DNA of 64,000 nucleotides, taken from Helicobacteraceae bacterium (GTDB taxonomy: Bacteria > Campylobacterota > Campylobacteria > Campylobacterales > Sulfurimonadaceae). The first letter of the stretch is position 1. Every line of letters begins with the position of its first letter. The notes below the pieces were generated by a model that had not been told where the DNA came from, made no database searches, and worked only from the letters and a program-made list of their open reading frames with translations. Where the stretch lies: the NCBI GenBank assembly GCA_027023805.1, contig JALVUF010000057.1:1-64000 (forward strand), in the 5' to 3' direction. Shown here in pieces: positions 52,032-59,699 of the stretch. A program made the translations under genes and the position numbers.

Positions 52032-53390
52032 ATGACAGATGGTCTAAAAAGTGAAATTAAAAGTTTTGAAGATGTAAACTGTGCTGAAGAAAAGATATTT
52101 TATCAGGCGATGGAGGAGGTTATTTTATCTATTGCTCCTTTGCTTGAATCTGACAGCAGATATAAAGAGTATGCTATATTAGAGCGGTTAGTTATTCCTG
52201 ACAGGATCATAAAATTTAAAGTAACATGGCTAGATGACAATAACCATATACGGGTAAATACAGGCTACAGGGTGCAATTTAATAACACGCTTGGTCCATA
52301 CAAAGGAGGCTTGAGGTTTCATCCAAGCGTCACTGAGGGTGTGTTGAAGTTTTTAGGTTTTGAGCAGATTTTTAAAAATTCACTAACCGGACTTCCTATA
52401 GGCGGAGGAAAAGGTGGGAGTGATTTTGATCCGAAAGGAAAAAGTGATTTTGAAATCATGAAATTTTGTACCGCTTTTATGACTGAACTGCATAAATATA
52501 TAGGTCCGCGCATAGATGTTCCCGCAGGTGATATAGGCGTAGGCACGCGTGAGATAGGTTACCTTTTTGGACAATATAAAAAGATAACATCATCTTATGA
52601 AGGTGTACTGACGGGTAAACCTTATACTTTTGGAGGTTCTTTTATGAGACCGGAGGCCACGGGATACGGCGTTGTGTATTTTACCGAAGCTATGCTCGCG
52701 TATGAGAAAAAGGATCCATTAAATGGTAAGATATGCACTGTCAGCGGTGCAGGAAATGTTGCTATCCATACGATAGAAAAACTACTTCAAATCGGCGCTA
52801 TTGTTGTAACTTGTTCAGATTCACAGGGGAGTGTTTATGATAGTAGAGGTATAGATATAGAGCTGTTAAAAAGCATCAAGATAGACAGAAGAGGATCCTT
52901 AAAAGAGTATATAGACACGCACAATGAGGCAGAATATACACCTGTTGGTGAGTACGAAGATGGTGCGCATTCGGTATGGAGCATACCTTGTTATGCGGCT
53001 TTTCCCTGTGCAACTCAAAATGAATTGACTGAAATTGATGCACAAAGCCTTATATCAAACGGCTGTATTTCCGTGAGCGAAGGCGCAAACATGCCATCCA
53101 CTCCGGAAGCAACAGCGCTGTTTTTGCAGCACGGTATCTGTTTTGCACCTGCAAAAGCTGCTAATGCAGGAGGGGTGGCAGTTAGTGAATTTGAGATGAG
53201 TCAAAATGCTTCTATGCAAAAATGGGGTTTTGAACGGGTTGATACTAAGTTAAAAGAGACAATGGAGCAAATATGTAAGCGTGTCGCACTGACAGCAAAA
53301 GATTATGGCGTTGAAAACAATTATGTTGATGGTGCTAATATAGCTGGGTTTAAGCGCGTTGCCGATGCTATGATTATTGAGGGAATATAA
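52032..53390 (+). CDS. gdhA: Glutamate dehydrogenase (NADP-type)
   Basis: Assimilates ammonium into 2-oxoglutarate. PYKGGLRFHPSV, LPIGGGKGGSDFDPKGKS (active-site Lys and Asp) and the Rossmann motif SGAGNVA are intact. Length 452 aa corresponds to the hexameric NADP form. Transcription appears to start at its own -10 (51995). The accessory cluster begins 68 nt after its stop. Confidence 0.96.
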   Translation: MTDGLKSEIKSFEDVNCAEEKIFYQAMEEVILSIAPLLESDSRYKEYAILERLVIPDRIIKFKVTWLDDNNHIRVNTGYRVQFNNTLGPYKGGLRFHPSVTEGVLKFLGFEQIFKNSLTGLPIGGGKGGSDFDPKGKSDFEIMKFCTAFMTELHKYIGPRIDVPAGDIGVGTREIGYLFGQYKKITSSYEGVLTGKPYTFGGSFMRPEATGYGVVYFTEAMLAYEKKDPLNGKICTVSGAGNVAIHTIEKLLQIGAIVVTCSDSQGSVYDSRGIDIELLKSIKIDRRGSLKEYIDTHNEAEYTPVGEYEDGAHSVWSIPCYAAFPCATQNELTEIDAQSLISNGCISVSEGANMPSTPEATALFLQHGICFAPAKAANAGGVAVSEFEMSQNASMQKWGFERVDTKLKETMEQICKRVALTAKDYGVENNYVDGANIAGFKRVADAMIIEGI

Positions 53391-53393
53391 AAC

Positions 53394-53407
53394 TTGACAT
53401 GTATCAA
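53394..53407. promoter_or_regulatory. FNR/DNR/NNR-type operator
   Basis: TTGACATGTATCAA fits TTGAY-N4-ATCAA. Its centre is 41.5 bp upstream of the start predicted from the TAAAAT at 53430-53435, the distance for class II activation. FNR-family regulators (oxygen or nitric-oxide sensing) use this site; which one is present cannot be told here. Confidence 0.7.
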
Positions 53408-53422
53408 TGACACAAATGAAAA

Positions 53423-53455
53423 AACCTCCTAAAATATGGGAAAACTTAGGAGGTT
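53423..53455 (+). repeat. Inverted repeat occluding the DUF2249 Shine-Dalgarno
   Basis: AACCTCCTAA (53423-53432) and TTAGGAGGTT (53446-53455), 10 bp perfect, 13-nt loop. The second arm contains the entire AGGAGG (53448-53453) of the gene starting at 53459. RNA that begins upstream would hide the ribosome site; RNA from the predicted start near 53442 would not include the first arm. Confidence 0.65.
53430..53435 (+). promoter_or_regulatory. -10 element of the DUF2249-FmdE cluster
   Basis: TAAAAT at -12 to -7 relative to a predicted start at 53442. It falls inside the inverted repeat, and the FNR-type site replaces the -35. Confidence 0.55.
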
Positions 53456-53458
53456 GTT

Positions 53459-53803
53459 ATGAGTATAATTCCAAATGAAGCTGAAAAGATTGAGGTAGAG
53501 GGTGCGACCGTTGATTTTTTCAAAAGTATAAAAGATGGTTGTTCGGTGTATTATTTTGATACTAGCAAGTGCGGTCCACCGGATCCTATGGTAAATGCGA
53601 TGGTCGGGCTACAGTTGTTAGATGAAAAATCAAGCTTAGTTATGATCAATCATAAAGCTCCCGCCGGTCTTTTTCCAAAAATTGAACATGATTTTAATTA
53701 TGAAGTTACAGACCTTGATGACGGAAGAGCTAAAGTAGTGTTTACAAAAAAAGATAGCTCAGAGAGTAAGACGGATTTTAATTCTACGAATTGCCACGGA
53801 TAG
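53459..53803 (+). CDS. DUF2249 / TusA-like protein
   Basis: 114 aa. YYFDTSKCGPPDPMVNAMVG and HKAPAGLFPKIEHDFNYEV match the DUF2249 fold, a SirA/TusA relative. Cys38 sits where TusA proteins carry their sulfur-relay Cys; Cys28 and the C-terminal CHG are extra. DUF2249 genes often accompany denitrification or hemerythrin-type genes. It leads a four-gene operon. Its AGGAGG is unusually strong and lies in an inverted repeat. Sulfur or metal handling is inference. Confidence 0.75.
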   Translation: MSIIPNEAEKIEVEGATVDFFKSIKDGCSVYYFDTSKCGPPDPMVNAMVGLQLLDEKSSLVMINHKAPAGLFPKIEHDFNYEVTDLDDGRAKVVFTKKDSSESKTDFNSTNCHG

Positions 53804-53812
53804 GGAACTACT

Positions 53813-55045
53813 ATGGCAGTTTCACAGGAGTTTGCACCGCCGTTCAAGCTTATAGCACCATATTTTATCTTAGGCGTTATTGCATTTGTGATTAGTGTAT
53901 TGTCGCTTTTTGGCTTTAATATCATAAATTTGACATATCAGGATATTTCTGTATTGTCGTGGGCTCATCTATTTTTACTGGGCTTTGTGATGATGGTTAT
54001 TTTTGGTGCAATGGCACAACTGATTCCGGTTGTCCTTGAGGTAGGTCACTTTGCTGTTGAGCTTTATTATGTGATATATCCGCTGTTATTTGCCGGGATG
54101 GTTATGATGGTAGCAGGCTTTAAATTCGTTCCTGCACTTTTACCGTATGGCGGATCTGTAGTGTTAATCGCGCTTTTAATTTTCATCTTTGAAACTTTTA
54201 TGACGATAAGAAAAGTCAAAAAATTCAATCTCGTCATTACTAGTGTTGCAATAGCAAACGGATTTTTGCTTTTAGGGCTTATTTTTGGTATTTTGATGGC
54301 CTTGGGGTTTGCCGGTGTTATAAGCATTGATTTTACCTCTTTGCTTCGTGCGCATGTGTTTTTGGTTTTAGTTGGATATGTGGGAATCACGATTATGGGC
54401 ATGAGTATGATTTTATTGCCCATGTTTTGGCTCTCACATAGCTATAGTGATAAAAATGTCACATATGCTTTGTGGTTTATCAGTATCGGTGTTATTATTG
54501 AGGTTATCTCATCAATTATAAACAGCCAAATACTGGAATATACCGGATATTTTTTAACGATTGTGGCGTTGGGGCTCTATTTTTGTCAAATGTACGTTAT
54601 TTACAAAACAAGAGTAAGGGCAGACAAAGATATTTATTTAAAAAGCATGATTTTTGCGTATGTTAGTTTGATTGTTGCTCTAGTAACGTTGACTCTTGCT
54701 ATCTTTTTACATACAACATCATTGATCCTTGCTGTCGGTTGGATTGCATTTTTTGGATATATTGGTTTTATGATTACGGGACATTTGTATAAGATTGTTC
54801 CGTTTTTAGTATGGTATGAAAGATTTTCACCTCTTGTGGGAAAAGAAAAGGTGCCAATGCTTGCCGATATGCTGCCAAAAAAAAGTGCAAATCTACAATT
54901 TATATTTTCAGCAAGTGGCATAGCAGTAGGGTATTTCGGCTTACTTTTAAGAGATAATACTATTTTTCATATAGGTGTTTATGCACTTAGTATAGGAAGT
55001 ATATTTGTTTTGAAAGATTTACTATATATGATAAGGTTTAAATAA
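53813..55045 (+). CDS. Heme-copper-oxidase-subunit-I-like / NnrS-like 12-TM membrane protein
   Basis: 410 aa, about 12 membrane helices. A 16-residue motif (G[FY][VI]xxxIxGxxxx[LI]xP) occurs three times, at 57-72, 188-203 and 315-330, about 130 residues or four helices apart. Threefold four-helix arcs are the known architecture of heme-copper oxidase subunit I. Membrane His residues include His52, His181, His300 and His324. The complete ligand set for heme a/b plus CuB is not obvious, so it is not a standard oxidase. It may be a heme protein of nitric-oxide metabolism like NnrS. Function inferred. Confidence 0.65.
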   Translation: MAVSQEFAPPFKLIAPYFILGVIAFVISVLSLFGFNIINLTYQDISVLSWAHLFLLGFVMMVIFGAMAQLIPVVLEVGHFAVELYYVIYPLLFAGMVMMVAGFKFVPALLPYGGSVVLIALLIFIFETFMTIRKVKKFNLVITSVAIANGFLLLGLIFGILMALGFAGVISIDFTSLLRAHVFLVLVGYVGITIMGMSMILLPMFWLSHSYSDKNVTYALWFISIGVIIEVISSIINSQILEYTGYFLTIVALGLYFCQMYVIYKTRVRADKDIYLKSMIFAYVSLIVALVTLTLAIFLHTTSLILAVGWIAFFGYIGFMITGHLYKIVPFLVWYERFSPLVGKEKVPMLADMLPKKSANLQFIFSASGIAVGYFGLLLRDNTIFHIGVYALSIGSIFVLKDLLYMIRFK

Positions 55046-55347
55046 TGTGTACAAAAGAAGAAATATTTAAAGCGGTTTCAACCGTAAAAGATCCTGAGAT
55101 AGGTTTTAATCTTGTAGAGCTTGGCTTAATTTACGATGCTAGTTGTGATGAAGAAGGCAATGCAGTCGTGACCATGACTCTTAGCACAAAAGCATGTCCG
55201 CTTCATCAGATGATAGTGCAATGGGTTGAAGAGGCTGTCATGCGTGACGTAGAAGGTGTTAAATCTGTGCATATAGATGTGGTATGGGAGCCCCAATGGG
55301 ATATTACAATGGCTAGTGATGATGTTCGAGAGAAATTAAGGATGTAA
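55045..55347 (+). CDS. DUF59/MIP18-family iron-sulfur assembly protein (SufT/PaaD-like)
   Basis: 100 aa. KDPEIGFNLVELGLIYD, TMTLSTKACPLH with conserved Cys51, and VWEPQWDITMASD form the SufT/PaaD-type core. Such proteins help insert Fe-S clusters into target proteins. Its ATG overlaps the upstream stop by one base. Present within a cluster of putative redox proteins, it suggests one member needs a cluster or its repair. Confidence 0.82.
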   Translation: MCTKEEIFKAVSTVKDPEIGFNLVELGLIYDASCDEEGNAVVTMTLSTKACPLHQMIVQWVEEAVMRDVEGVKSVHIDVVWEPQWDITMASDDVREKLRM

Positions 55348-55349
55348 TT

Positions 55350-55946
55350 ATGAAGTATCCAGATTTTTTTAATGATTTGCCAAGTATTACACTGCAAGAT
55401 GAGTTATCGGAATTTTTAGGCACATTTGCAAATGGAATAGTTGAATTTAGTTACCTGGATATCGTAAAAAGTGCAGGGCACAGCTGCCCGACCGTACTAG
55501 GTGCATATCTCTCCTGTATAAATGGTTTAAATGCGCTGTTTGGTGAAGATGTACCAAAACGTGGTCAAATTTTTATCTCTTTTAAAGAGCATGAAAACGA
55601 GGGTGTAGCAGGAGTCATTGCAAATGTATATACCCAGATCACCGGTGCGACTAAAACAAGTGGTTTTAAAGGGATAGCCGGTAATTTTGTCAGACATTCC
55701 TTGATGGACTTTGGTGCCAATATCTCATCTGATGTTAAAATAACCAGACTAGATACCAATAAAAGCGTAGAAGTTGTATATAATCCAAATCTGGTTCCCG
55801 GCTCACCAAAACAGATGGAGCTTATGCAAAAAATTATACAAAATAGAGCGACAGATGATGAAAAAATAGAATTTGGACAACTTTGGCAACAAAGAGTTGA
55901 AGATATTTTTTTACATCAAGACAAATGTTTAAGGGTTAAATTATAA
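55350..55946 (+). CDS. FmdE-like Cys/His protein
   Basis: 198 aa. VKSAGHSCPTVLGAYLSCING (His44, Cys46, Cys56) matches the start of FmdE-domain proteins, where GHxCP binds metal. FmdE stands for subunit E of formylmethanofuran dehydrogenase, but most bacterial members are of unknown role. C-terminal zinc-ribbon cysteines seen in some are missing; only a Cys near the end remains. It follows the DUF59 gene by 2 nt and overlaps pgpA convergently by 6 nt. Confidence 0.65.
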   Translation: MKYPDFFNDLPSITLQDELSEFLGTFANGIVEFSYLDIVKSAGHSCPTVLGAYLSCINGLNALFGEDVPKRGQIFISFKEHENEGVAGVIANVYTQITGATKTSGFKGIAGNFVRHSLMDFGANISSDVKITRLDTNKSVEVVYNPNLVPGSPKQMELMQKIIQNRATDDEKIEFGQLWQQRVEDIFLHQDKCLRVKL

Positions 55947-57651: not shown

Positions 57652-58516
57652 ATCTTTTTCTTTTTTCCCACAAGCTCTTTCTGGAGATACCCAATTTTTT
57701 AGATAATTCTGTGTCTGGAAATTTTGTTTGATAGTTTATGATAATGTATTTTACATATTCTTCTATTTGTAAAATATCGCTTTGTTCAAAGATATTTGTT
57801 TCATTTTTAATGTTTAATACAGGATAATCAATGTCTTGTATTTTGTCTGTGCTACAGACAATGATTTGTTTATCTTTAATTATATCTAAAAATTCTTTTT
57901 TATCAGTTTTTTTAATATCTTGAAAATCTGTGGCATAGATAAGTATATTGTTAGGCAGAGAGGCTATCTCTTTTAGAGCATAAGAGTCGGCAAGAGATAT
58001 AAAAAATAGGGCATTATCTGTATGTTTAGCATATTTAAAAGCAAAAGAATCGGAATACTTTTGAAAACTGCTTGATATAAAAATAGGGAGTTGAATATTT
58101 TCAACATCCTGCTCTTTTTCAATAGTGGCAAATTGGTGTTCTAAGTATTTATCATATGATTGAACTTTTAGCTTTAGTTTTTCATAATCTCTGTAATGCT
58201 CTATTTTTCTTATCAGCTCACCAATCATGAATGGCTTTAAGATATAATCTGTTGCACCCAGAGACAGAGGTTTTGATACGGTATCGTTACTAACATATGA
58301 AACCATTAAAATAATAATTATTTTTTTAAAAGCTTCTATAGCATGGTTAAAATCTTGGCCGTTTAGATTTGTTGATAATAAAACAACATCATAATTTTTA
58401 TACTCTAAAGCATATCTTATAGAAGTTGATATCTCACATACATGTCCTAGATCAGCTAATTTTGTTGCAATGCTTTGAGCAAGATAGATTTCATTTTCAA
58501 TTATTAATATTTTCAT
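57629..58516 (-). CDS. Orphan atypical response regulator, HP1021/Cj1608-like
   Basis: 295 aa. A receiver fold at 1-115 keeps KP (Lys94) but has Ser48 where phosphorylated Asp belongs (VVLLSTNLNG). The C-terminus carries a Fis-type HTH (LSKKLGISRKSLWEKRKRYGI). In H. pylori HP1021 also has Ser there, acts without phosphorylation and controls oriC/DnaA and many genes in a redox-linked way. Gene order ispDF-regulator is conserved. Only two Cys here (Cys27 and one near 228). Start ATG at 58516 overlaps the ispDF TGA; an ATG 4 codons upstream is less likely. Confidence 0.88.
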   Translation of the reverse strand: MKILIIENEIYLAQSIATKLADLGHVCEISTSIRYALEYKNYDVVLLSTNLNGQDFNHAIEAFKKIIIILMVSYVSNDTVSKPLSLGATDYILKPFMIGELIRKIEHYRDYEKLKLKVQSYDKYLEHQFATIEKEQDVENIQLPIFISSSFQKYSDSFAFKYAKHTDNALFFISLADSYALKEIASLPNNILIYATDFQDIKKTDKKEFLDIIKDKQIIVCSTDKIQDIDYPVLNIKNETNIFEQSDILQIEEYVKYIIINYQTKFPDTELSKKLGISRKSLWEKRKRYGIEKKK

Positions 58517-59634
58517 GTATCTTTCCAATTTAAATAGCTAAGTGATGCAGATGCTAAAACGCCCACACCCTCTTTACGCCCTATAAATCCTAAATGCTCG
58601 GTAGTTGTAGCTTTAATATTTATTTTTGACGGGGATATCTGCAGTATGGAGGCTATCGTTTTTCGCATATCGGCTTTATAGTGTTGAAGTTTTGGAGTTT
58701 GTGCAATTATCGTTAAGTCGATATTGTTGATTATGAAACCGTATCTGTGCAGTTTCCCAACAGAGCGTGTAAGTAAAATTTTTGAATCGATATCTTTATA
58801 TTTTGAATCGTTATCGGGAAACAGCATTCCGATATCACCAAGACCAGCAGCACCAAGAAGTGCATCTATAAGCGCATGAATAGCAACATCACCATCGCTG
58901 TGCGCAAGAAAACCAACATTATGGCCAATTTTAACACCGCCTAAATACATGGTGCCGGTAGTGTCAAATTGATGTACGTCAAAACCGTTGCCTATGAGTG
59001 TTACACTATGTGGAGCTTTTAGGCACTGAAGCTTTTTTAAATCTTCGACTGTTGTCACTTTTAGTGCTTTATCATCACCGTCAATAAAAATTCTTGAGCC
59101 TTTGTTAGCTGCTATAGCGCTACTTTCATCGGTATATTGCGTATCTGATTGCAAGGCTTGTATCAGCGCACTGGTTTTGGACAACTGAGGGGTTTGAATA
59201 CGCAAGATTTTTTCACGATCGATAGTTTGATTGCCATAAACCACGGTATCATGCACTTTAATAGCCGGTACGATACAGTCGGCATGACCTTTTGCCTGCA
59301 AAAGATCATTGAATAGTTTGTTGCTAATACACGGTCTTGCTATGTCGCTGACTAGCACATAGGGAGTGGCTACATGCGTTAAAGCGTTTTTGAGTGACTG
59401 CTGCCTTGTATCTGCTCCTCCTACGACTAAAAAATCCGTAAATGTGTCCATAAAAGTAACATCTTCATAAGGTGCAGCTATGATAATTTTATCAAAAGCA
59501 TATCGTTTGCTAAAATTTTGTGCAACAAACTCCCATAAAGGCTTGTCCTGTATGCGCAGCCACTGTTTTTTGACATTGATTTTAAAGCGCGTCGAAGCAC
59601 CTGCTGCGAGTAAAATAAGCGTTAAATCGGACAA
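58513..59634 (-). CDS. ispDF: Bifunctional MEP-pathway enzyme IspDF
   Basis: Fusion of CDP-ME synthase (IspD, about 1-215; LLAAGASTRF) and MECDP synthase (IspF, about 218-373; GNGFDVHQF, GDVAIHALIDALLGAAGLGDIG). Campylobacterota often carry this fusion, which would couple steps 3 and 5 of isoprenoid synthesis around IspE (22831-23595). Start TTG at 59634 has AGGAG 5 nt upstream and begins SDLTLILLAAG; an upstream ATG at 59676 would add 14 residues. Confidence 0.92.
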   Translation of the reverse strand: MSDLTLILLAAGASTRFKINVKKQWLRIQDKPLWEFVAQNFSKRYAFDKIIIAAPYEDVTFMDTFTDFLVVGGADTRQQSLKNALTHVATPYVLVSDIARPCISNKLFNDLLQAKGHADCIVPAIKVHDTVVYGNQTIDREKILRIQTPQLSKTSALIQALQSDTQYTDESSAIAANKGSRIFIDGDDKALKVTTVEDLKKLQCLKAPHSVTLIGNGFDVHQFDTTGTMYLGGVKIGHNVGFLAHSDGDVAIHALIDALLGAAGLGDIGMLFPDNDSKYKDIDSKILLTRSVGKLHRYGFIINNIDLTIIAQTPKLQHYKADMRKTIASILQISPSKINIKATTTEHLGFIGRKEGVGVLASASLSYLNWKDT

Positions 59635-59699
59635 ATAAACTCCTGTTTTTTTAAACACTGTTACGAAATTATACACTTTAAAAGCTTTTTTTTATCTTG

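Follow-up and report, generated by a model that had tools for sequence, protein, structure and literature searches.

A conserved operon of DUF2249, heme-copper-oxidase-like and DUF59 proteins linked to denitrification in Campylobacterota

A stretch of 64,000 nucleotides (nt) from a Helicobacteraceae bacterium (assembly GCA_027023805.1, contig JALVUF010000057.1; hereafter the window) contains four tightly packed genes, here called A to D. They raise a simple question: what might a DUF2249-like protein, a membrane protein resembling heme-copper oxidases (HCO), an Fe-S assembly protein and an FmdE-like protein do together? A preliminary description, made from the sequence alone, viewed them as a possibly undescribed four-gene system behind an FNR/DNR-type operator, perhaps serving nitric oxide (NO) detoxification or repair, or acting as a low-oxygen reductase. 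Our analysis establishes a conserved, correctly promoted and denitrification-linked operon. As to its role, we propose, with the case about evenly balanced, that A-B-C, with D as a frequent partner, may be an accessory module of the NO/denitrification regulon that protects or rebuilds Fe-S and iron centers by a mechanism that we infer below. The features of the locus are as follows.

53394..53407, + strand: FNR/DNR/Nss-type operator TTGACatgtATCAA, a perfect palindromic match to TTGAYN4RTCAA
53430..53435, + strand: -10 hexamer TAAAAT, 22 nt past the operator box (class II spacing), from the sequence
53448..53453, + strand: Shine-Dalgarno sequence AGGAGG of gene A, from the sequence
53459..53803, + strand: gene A, DUF2249-like, 114 amino acids (aa); PF10006 (DUF2249), 21.8 bits
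53813..55045, + strand: gene B, 12 transmembrane helices (TM), HCO fold, 410 aa; AlphaFold/Foldseek and His alignment
55045..55347, + strand: gene C, DUF59/MIP18 (SufT/PaaD-like) Fe-S assembly protein, 100 aa; PF01883, 56.5 bits
55350..55946, + strand: gene D, FmdE-like, 198 aa, optional member; GHSCPTV motif and Foldseek

The open reading frames (ORFs) of A to D (53459-55946, + strand) and their spacing of 9, -1 and 2 nt exactly reproduce what had been described before. The family labels were also correct for all four, although A, B and D score under the Pfam cut-off and C alone passes it. Upstream lies gdhA, with its stop codon at 53390, and downstream a convergent pgpA. The host genome (1.64 Mb in 73 contigs, an estimated 99.96% complete by computation) belongs to Campylobacterota, and its best-matching named relatives are metagenome-assembled genomes (MAGs) of Sulfurimonadaceae and Arcobacteraceae type.

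Does the same grouping occur elsewhere? Of 201 Campylobacterota genomes sampled, 70 have an ortholog of B, defined by an E-value of about 1e-29 or better. In 20 larger neighborhoods from across the phylum, A-B-C appear in this order in 16 (one B being split by a stop), A-B without C in two and B alone in two. All three genes also stand together in about 66 of the 80 loci nearest to B in a public genome collection, a set that is not independent of the survey because some loci come from the same genomes (for example, L103 is G010). Gaps in these loci range from -28 to 28 nt between A and B and mostly from -11 to 40 nt between B and C. Relatives of A that precede B are 38–63% identical. D shares the operon in the window and in L049 (G047), L086, L090, L094, L096 and L101, about six of some 100 relatives; otherwise it lies a few kb away, adjoining B', a paralog of B (G003, G058, G125, G131, G145, G199), or apart. 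Since D is rarely operonic and A-B-C recurs, the conserved unit is A-B-C plus an optional D. The expected recurrence of the genes is thus borne out, but the constant four-gene unit has to give way to three genes and a partner.

Several loci deserve separate mention. In an Arcobacter-type MAG, an in-frame TAG stop interrupts B (L036:9055-10287, G044). On an Aliarcobacter butzleri plasmid, A-B-C lies between Tn3-type and IS21 transposition genes (L170:1683-10780), which suggests mobility. Sulfurimonas/Arcobacter-like B genes also occur on contigs whose titles name Helicobacter pylori, Desulfosporosinus and Methylomirabilis (L089, L116, L133), probably mislabelled or contaminated bins.

Is the operator genuine? 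It begins 4 nt past the gdhA stop codon. A perfect box is found upstream of A in 49 of 71 relatives, compared with 0.17% in shuffled sequences, usually at a distance of 65–75 nt, and in 42 of these 49 the best -10 element lies exactly 22 nt beyond it. This is the geometry of a class II activator, with the box centered near -41.5, and it agrees with Nitrosophilus napA, norE and nosB, where the box-to-transcription-start distance is 48–49 nt (PMC11539149). Judged from its conservation among relatives and its proper placement for activation, the box noted in the preliminary description is very likely a genuine control site. The same genome carries the same box upstream of narG (L067:6675), moaA (L177), nnrS (L188, about 62 nt from box to ORF), a protoglobin-PsiE gene (L189) and a cytochrome-like gene (L180). 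It also encodes proteins with cyclic-nucleotide-monophosphate-binding domains, one of them 33% identical to the regulator linked to A-B-C in L083. In Wolinella, Nss regulators respond to nitrate, NO and nitrous oxide (N2O) (PMC6682613).

Not every perfect box can be regulatory, a notion that we dropped: there are 22 genome-wide, about half or more of them intragenic, and a reversed control pattern yields 9, so that many are probably chance matches. The window contains two perfect sites in all; the other, at 58969-58982 within an IspDF-like ORF (58513-59676), is probably due to chance. In L189, the box stands by the gene for a fusion of protoglobin and PsiE (1282-2250; G000:C59), with a gene resembling nitrite/sulfite reductases pointing the other way.

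Downstream of the operator, an inverted repeat (AACCTCCTAA/TTAGGAGGTT, 53423-53455; z = -2.6) masks the Shine-Dalgarno sequence of A. The hairpin had no match in Rfam and, judged by eye, is not apparent in relatives. We rejected it as an RNA switch of the box-driven promoter because, with the -10 hexamer at 53430-53435, the regulated transcript starts past its 5' arm. It would form solely in mRNA reading through from gdhA and hence could block translation of that message.

How firm is the link to nitrogen oxides? On a single contig the host carries narGHJI, nirS together with accessory nir genes, norCB and a gene of Rrf2 type; neither nosZ nor nrfA was found in the genome. With nar, nirS and norCB present and nosZ and nrfA not found, the gene content predicts that this organism should make both NO and N2O. 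The preliminary description had proposed a co-occurrence test with nirS, norB and nosZ, and for B it turned out significant throughout: B is present in 24 of 26 genomes with nirS (p = 9e-11), 46 of 50 with nosZ (p = 7e-23) and 44 of 53 with NO reductase (p = 2e-17). Counting by genus, which lessens the effect of shared ancestry, gives 10 of 11 for nirS (p = 3e-4) and 12 of 13 for nosZ (p = 2.5e-5). Of 15 genomes that have B and nirS on one contig, 14 show the two less than 45 kb apart (11–41 kb). Both the co-occurrence and this proximity bear out a nitrogen-oxide link. Every one of the 26 sampled Campylobacterota genomes with nirS has D. The host also has an additional NorB-like gene of the COX1 family (G000:C50:1279-2619), 39% identical to NorB of its c-type NO reductase (cNOR) and possibly representing another NO reductase class.

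The tight linkage of B to the nir-nor region could also mean that A-B-C is a maturation factor assembling the metal centers of NO, nitrite or N2O reductase, and not a means of general protection. This alternative gains from work on Thermus, in which DUF2249 was tied to nitrate respiration through DrpA/DrpB in 2018 and drpAB mutants were found to have a poorly active nitrate reductase (PMC6282519). Nonetheless, 18 genomes possess B without nirS, nosZ or NO reductase, nine possess NO reductase without B, and G008 and G187 carry nirS and norB without B. We therefore regard a dedicated maturation role as rather unlikely.

Gene neighborhoods in relatives speak to the function in another way. In L090 and L094, the order on a single strand is nifS-nifU-A-B-C-D-hemerythrin-B'. 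A Crp/Fnr gene stands directly upstream in L083, where a YgbA_NO gene follows C, and directly upstream of A-B-C in L085; in L101, D is followed by two genes, one YgbA-like as judged by eye and the other of Crp/Fnr type. L098 and L103 have an Rrf2-type regulator directly upstream. E. coli YgbA is a member of the NsrR-controlled, NO-responsive set (PMC5320621). Outside the phylum, Thermus plasmids show the order narGHJI-MFS-drpA-drpB-small COX1-like gene-protoglobin-B-C, and Mesorhizobium has B-A-C followed by genes for DUF1858, Crp/Fnr, pseudoazurin, NnrS and nosRZ. The nitrogen-oxide link thus extends across phyla. A protoglobin gene adjoins B-C in the Thermus plasmids as well as the box in the host genome. 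The 144-aa Thermus protein encoded between drpB and the protoglobin gene (L166:7665-8096) partially matches COX1 (profile positions 344-406) and is possibly a small free-standing HCO unit.

Such neighborhoods could also be read as a sensory device akin to DrpA/DrpB, in which the membrane protein B would sense nitrate or NO and signal through A to the activator. B-C adjoins drpAB in Thermus, a DUF1858+DUF2249-type protein (judged by eye) adjoins A-B-C in L045, and the Crp/Fnr genes of L083 and L085 would fit as well. Yet BLAST finds no similarity between A and DrpA, and the Fe-S factor C, together with the NifS, NifU and hemerythrin neighbors, suits maturation or repair better; we find sensing of this kind quite improbable.

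What is protein B? Its AlphaFold model consists of 12 long helices (pLDDT 90.8), and the 50 best Foldseek matches in PDB are all oxidase or NO reductase entries (TMq up to 0.75), confirming the earlier view of a 12-TM, heme-copper-oxidase-like protein. The fold resembles that of HCO/NO reductase subunit I (PF00115) at TM-scores of 0.58–0.75 against cbb3, aa3 and cNOR, and B has His residues in TM2, TM6 and TM10. It differs from that family in its 10–15% identity in structural alignments, its length of 410 aa and its lack of a His pair in TM7. At the sequence level, B reaches 19.2 bits against PF00115 (COX1; cut-off 34.8), with weak matches in 8 of 20 members, and a sequence-profile search of PDB yielded nothing. 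All 90 aligned sequences have His52 (TM2) and His181 (TM6), with helices assigned by secondary structure and order. His324 (TM10) is kept in all 85 orthologs and replaced by Met in B' and Thermus and by Gln in Mesorhizobium. The TM7 His pair for CuB/FeB was not found in the 90-sequence alignment, leaving the six-His ligand set incomplete.

Because of this missing pair, a catalytic copper or second-iron site is not expected in B; in the orthologs, TM2 and TM10 might hold a single low-spin heme between them. The prediction of a heme protein is only half upheld, by the invariant TM2 and TM6 His residues but not by TM10, where distant members have Met or Gln. The low-oxygen reductase option is not supported, given the lack of TM7 ligands, which likewise disfavors oxidase or NO reductase activity in B. 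The HCO fold and the His residues conserved in TM2 and TM6, and among orthologs also in TM10, would fit a new terminal oxidase or NO reductase that the other three proteins mature. Given the absent TM7 pair, a TM10 His that is not universal and a genome that already holds a complete cNOR, we consider this highly improbable.

Nor is B an NnrS protein: the hhalign probability is 1%, none of 20 members matches PF05940, and the genome has a separate nnrS. B resembles NnrS in being a membrane protein of nitrogen-oxide regulons, the host nnrS carrying the same box, but the two are not homologous by profile. B' (L040:6487-8351, L090:10719-11987) is an uncharacterized sister of B, about 420 aa long, with Met instead of the TM10 His and no Pfam match; it often adjoins D.

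Of the soluble proteins, C is the best defined. It scores 56.5 bits against PF01883 (cut-off 23.5), retains the DPE motif, has Cys51 and His54 invariant in the alignment, and has PDB relatives 1uwd and 2cu6/TTHB138. Although C passes the cut-off of the MIP18/SufT/PaaD family and has its Cys and DPE motifs, its scores stay below the cut-offs that NCBIfam sets for equivalogs of the SUF-associated, SufT and PaaD proteins. The match of A to PF10006, below the cut-off of 29.5 bits, spans profile positions 2–70 of 70. A reading of A as a TusA-type sulfurtransferase is not supported, since the position of Cys38 is Cys in 15 of 19 sequences only. D scores 17.1 bits against FmdE (PF02663; cut-off 22.9) and adopts the FmdE fold, with 2glz, 2gvi and 3d00 as the only credible Foldseek matches; its GHSCPTV motif is invariant. 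Sequence-profile searches of PDB with A and D yielded nothing. In Azospirillum, D follows nirK and precedes a hemerythrin gene; in Paracoccus, it lies between an Rrf2 gene and genes for an ABC transporter plus NnrS; and in a Neisseria gonorrhoeae record (L174:4989-5615), where it is unannotated, a D homolog is flanked by the permease and ATPase genes of a siderophore-type ABC transporter (judged from ORFs). The Paracoccus and Neisseria contexts suggest a role for D in iron handling.

To what extent is the system new? We found no description of the A-B-C(-D) unit in the literature searched, which excludes the study most likely to contain one, Pei et al. 2014; a passage in PMC11218638 credits that study with an association between DUF2249 and relatives of the HCO superfamily. 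The label "undescribed" thus stands for the unit, but not for the link of DUF2249 to NO and nitrate regulons, already published (PMC1274295, PMC6282519). DUF2249 was placed in the NO reductase regulon in 2005 (PMC1274295). COG4309/DUF2249 of the NnrR and NsrR regulons resembles A as a DUF2249 gene under an NO-type regulator in denitrifiers; it is co-transcribed with nor there, whereas here the partners are a 12-TM HCO-like protein and a DUF59 factor. The Thermus DrpA/DrpB system is similar in having DUF2249 proteins beside nar, and Thermus drpAB lies just upstream of the B and C homologs; unlike that system, the window has no DrpB counterpart. B and C were outside the subject of the Thermus study (PMC6282519).

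Returning to the proposed accessory module, we picture its action as follows. A Crp/Fnr activator, presumably of Nss/DNR kind, would bind the box at about -41.5 and turn on the operon with nitrate or NO, the latter being the presumed signal, at low oxygen. B, as a non-catalytic member of the HCO fold, would bind or sense NO or a metal in the membrane in an NnrS-like manner; it might use a b-type heme and would not reduce NO. C, being of MIP18/SufT type, would act with A to deliver or rebuild Fe-S or iron centers, while D might take care of iron or thiols that are set free. Overall, iron proteins would be protected or re-matured while the cell produces its own NO. Of the preliminary description, the single operon, its FNR/DNR-type operator and the nitrogen-oxide link are supported; a role in Fe-S/iron protection is our inference.

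Several observations weigh against this proposal. Heme in B is uncertain because distant members have Met or Gln in place of the TM10 His. The box is missing in some close relatives, L098 and L103 among them. NO as the signal is indistinguishable by sequence alone from nitrate, N2O or low oxygen. Of the 70 genomes with B, 18 have neither nirS nor nosZ nor a detected NO reductase, although 13 of them do carry nrfA. Finally, the presence of D among iron-uptake genes may mean that its role is separate.

A more far-reaching version, which we offer tentatively and regard as less likely than the module itself, is that A-B-C may be an old dedicated module, present in Campylobacterota as well as, with its genes variously ordered, in Alphaproteobacteria and Thermus. 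Such a module would couple a catalytically dead HCO relative, a MIP18-type factor and DUF2249 so that membrane NO or nitrate directly controls the rebuilding of Fe-S and iron centers, and would be a form of NO defense separate from Hmp, NorVW, Hcp, YtfE and NnrS. NO is a self-made poison for denitrifiers, whose NO regulons include several proteins with no known activity. Under its nar/nnrS-type switch, A-B-C represents a defined, deletable target that could reveal the roles of non-catalytic HCO relatives and of DUF2249, unexplained since 2005.
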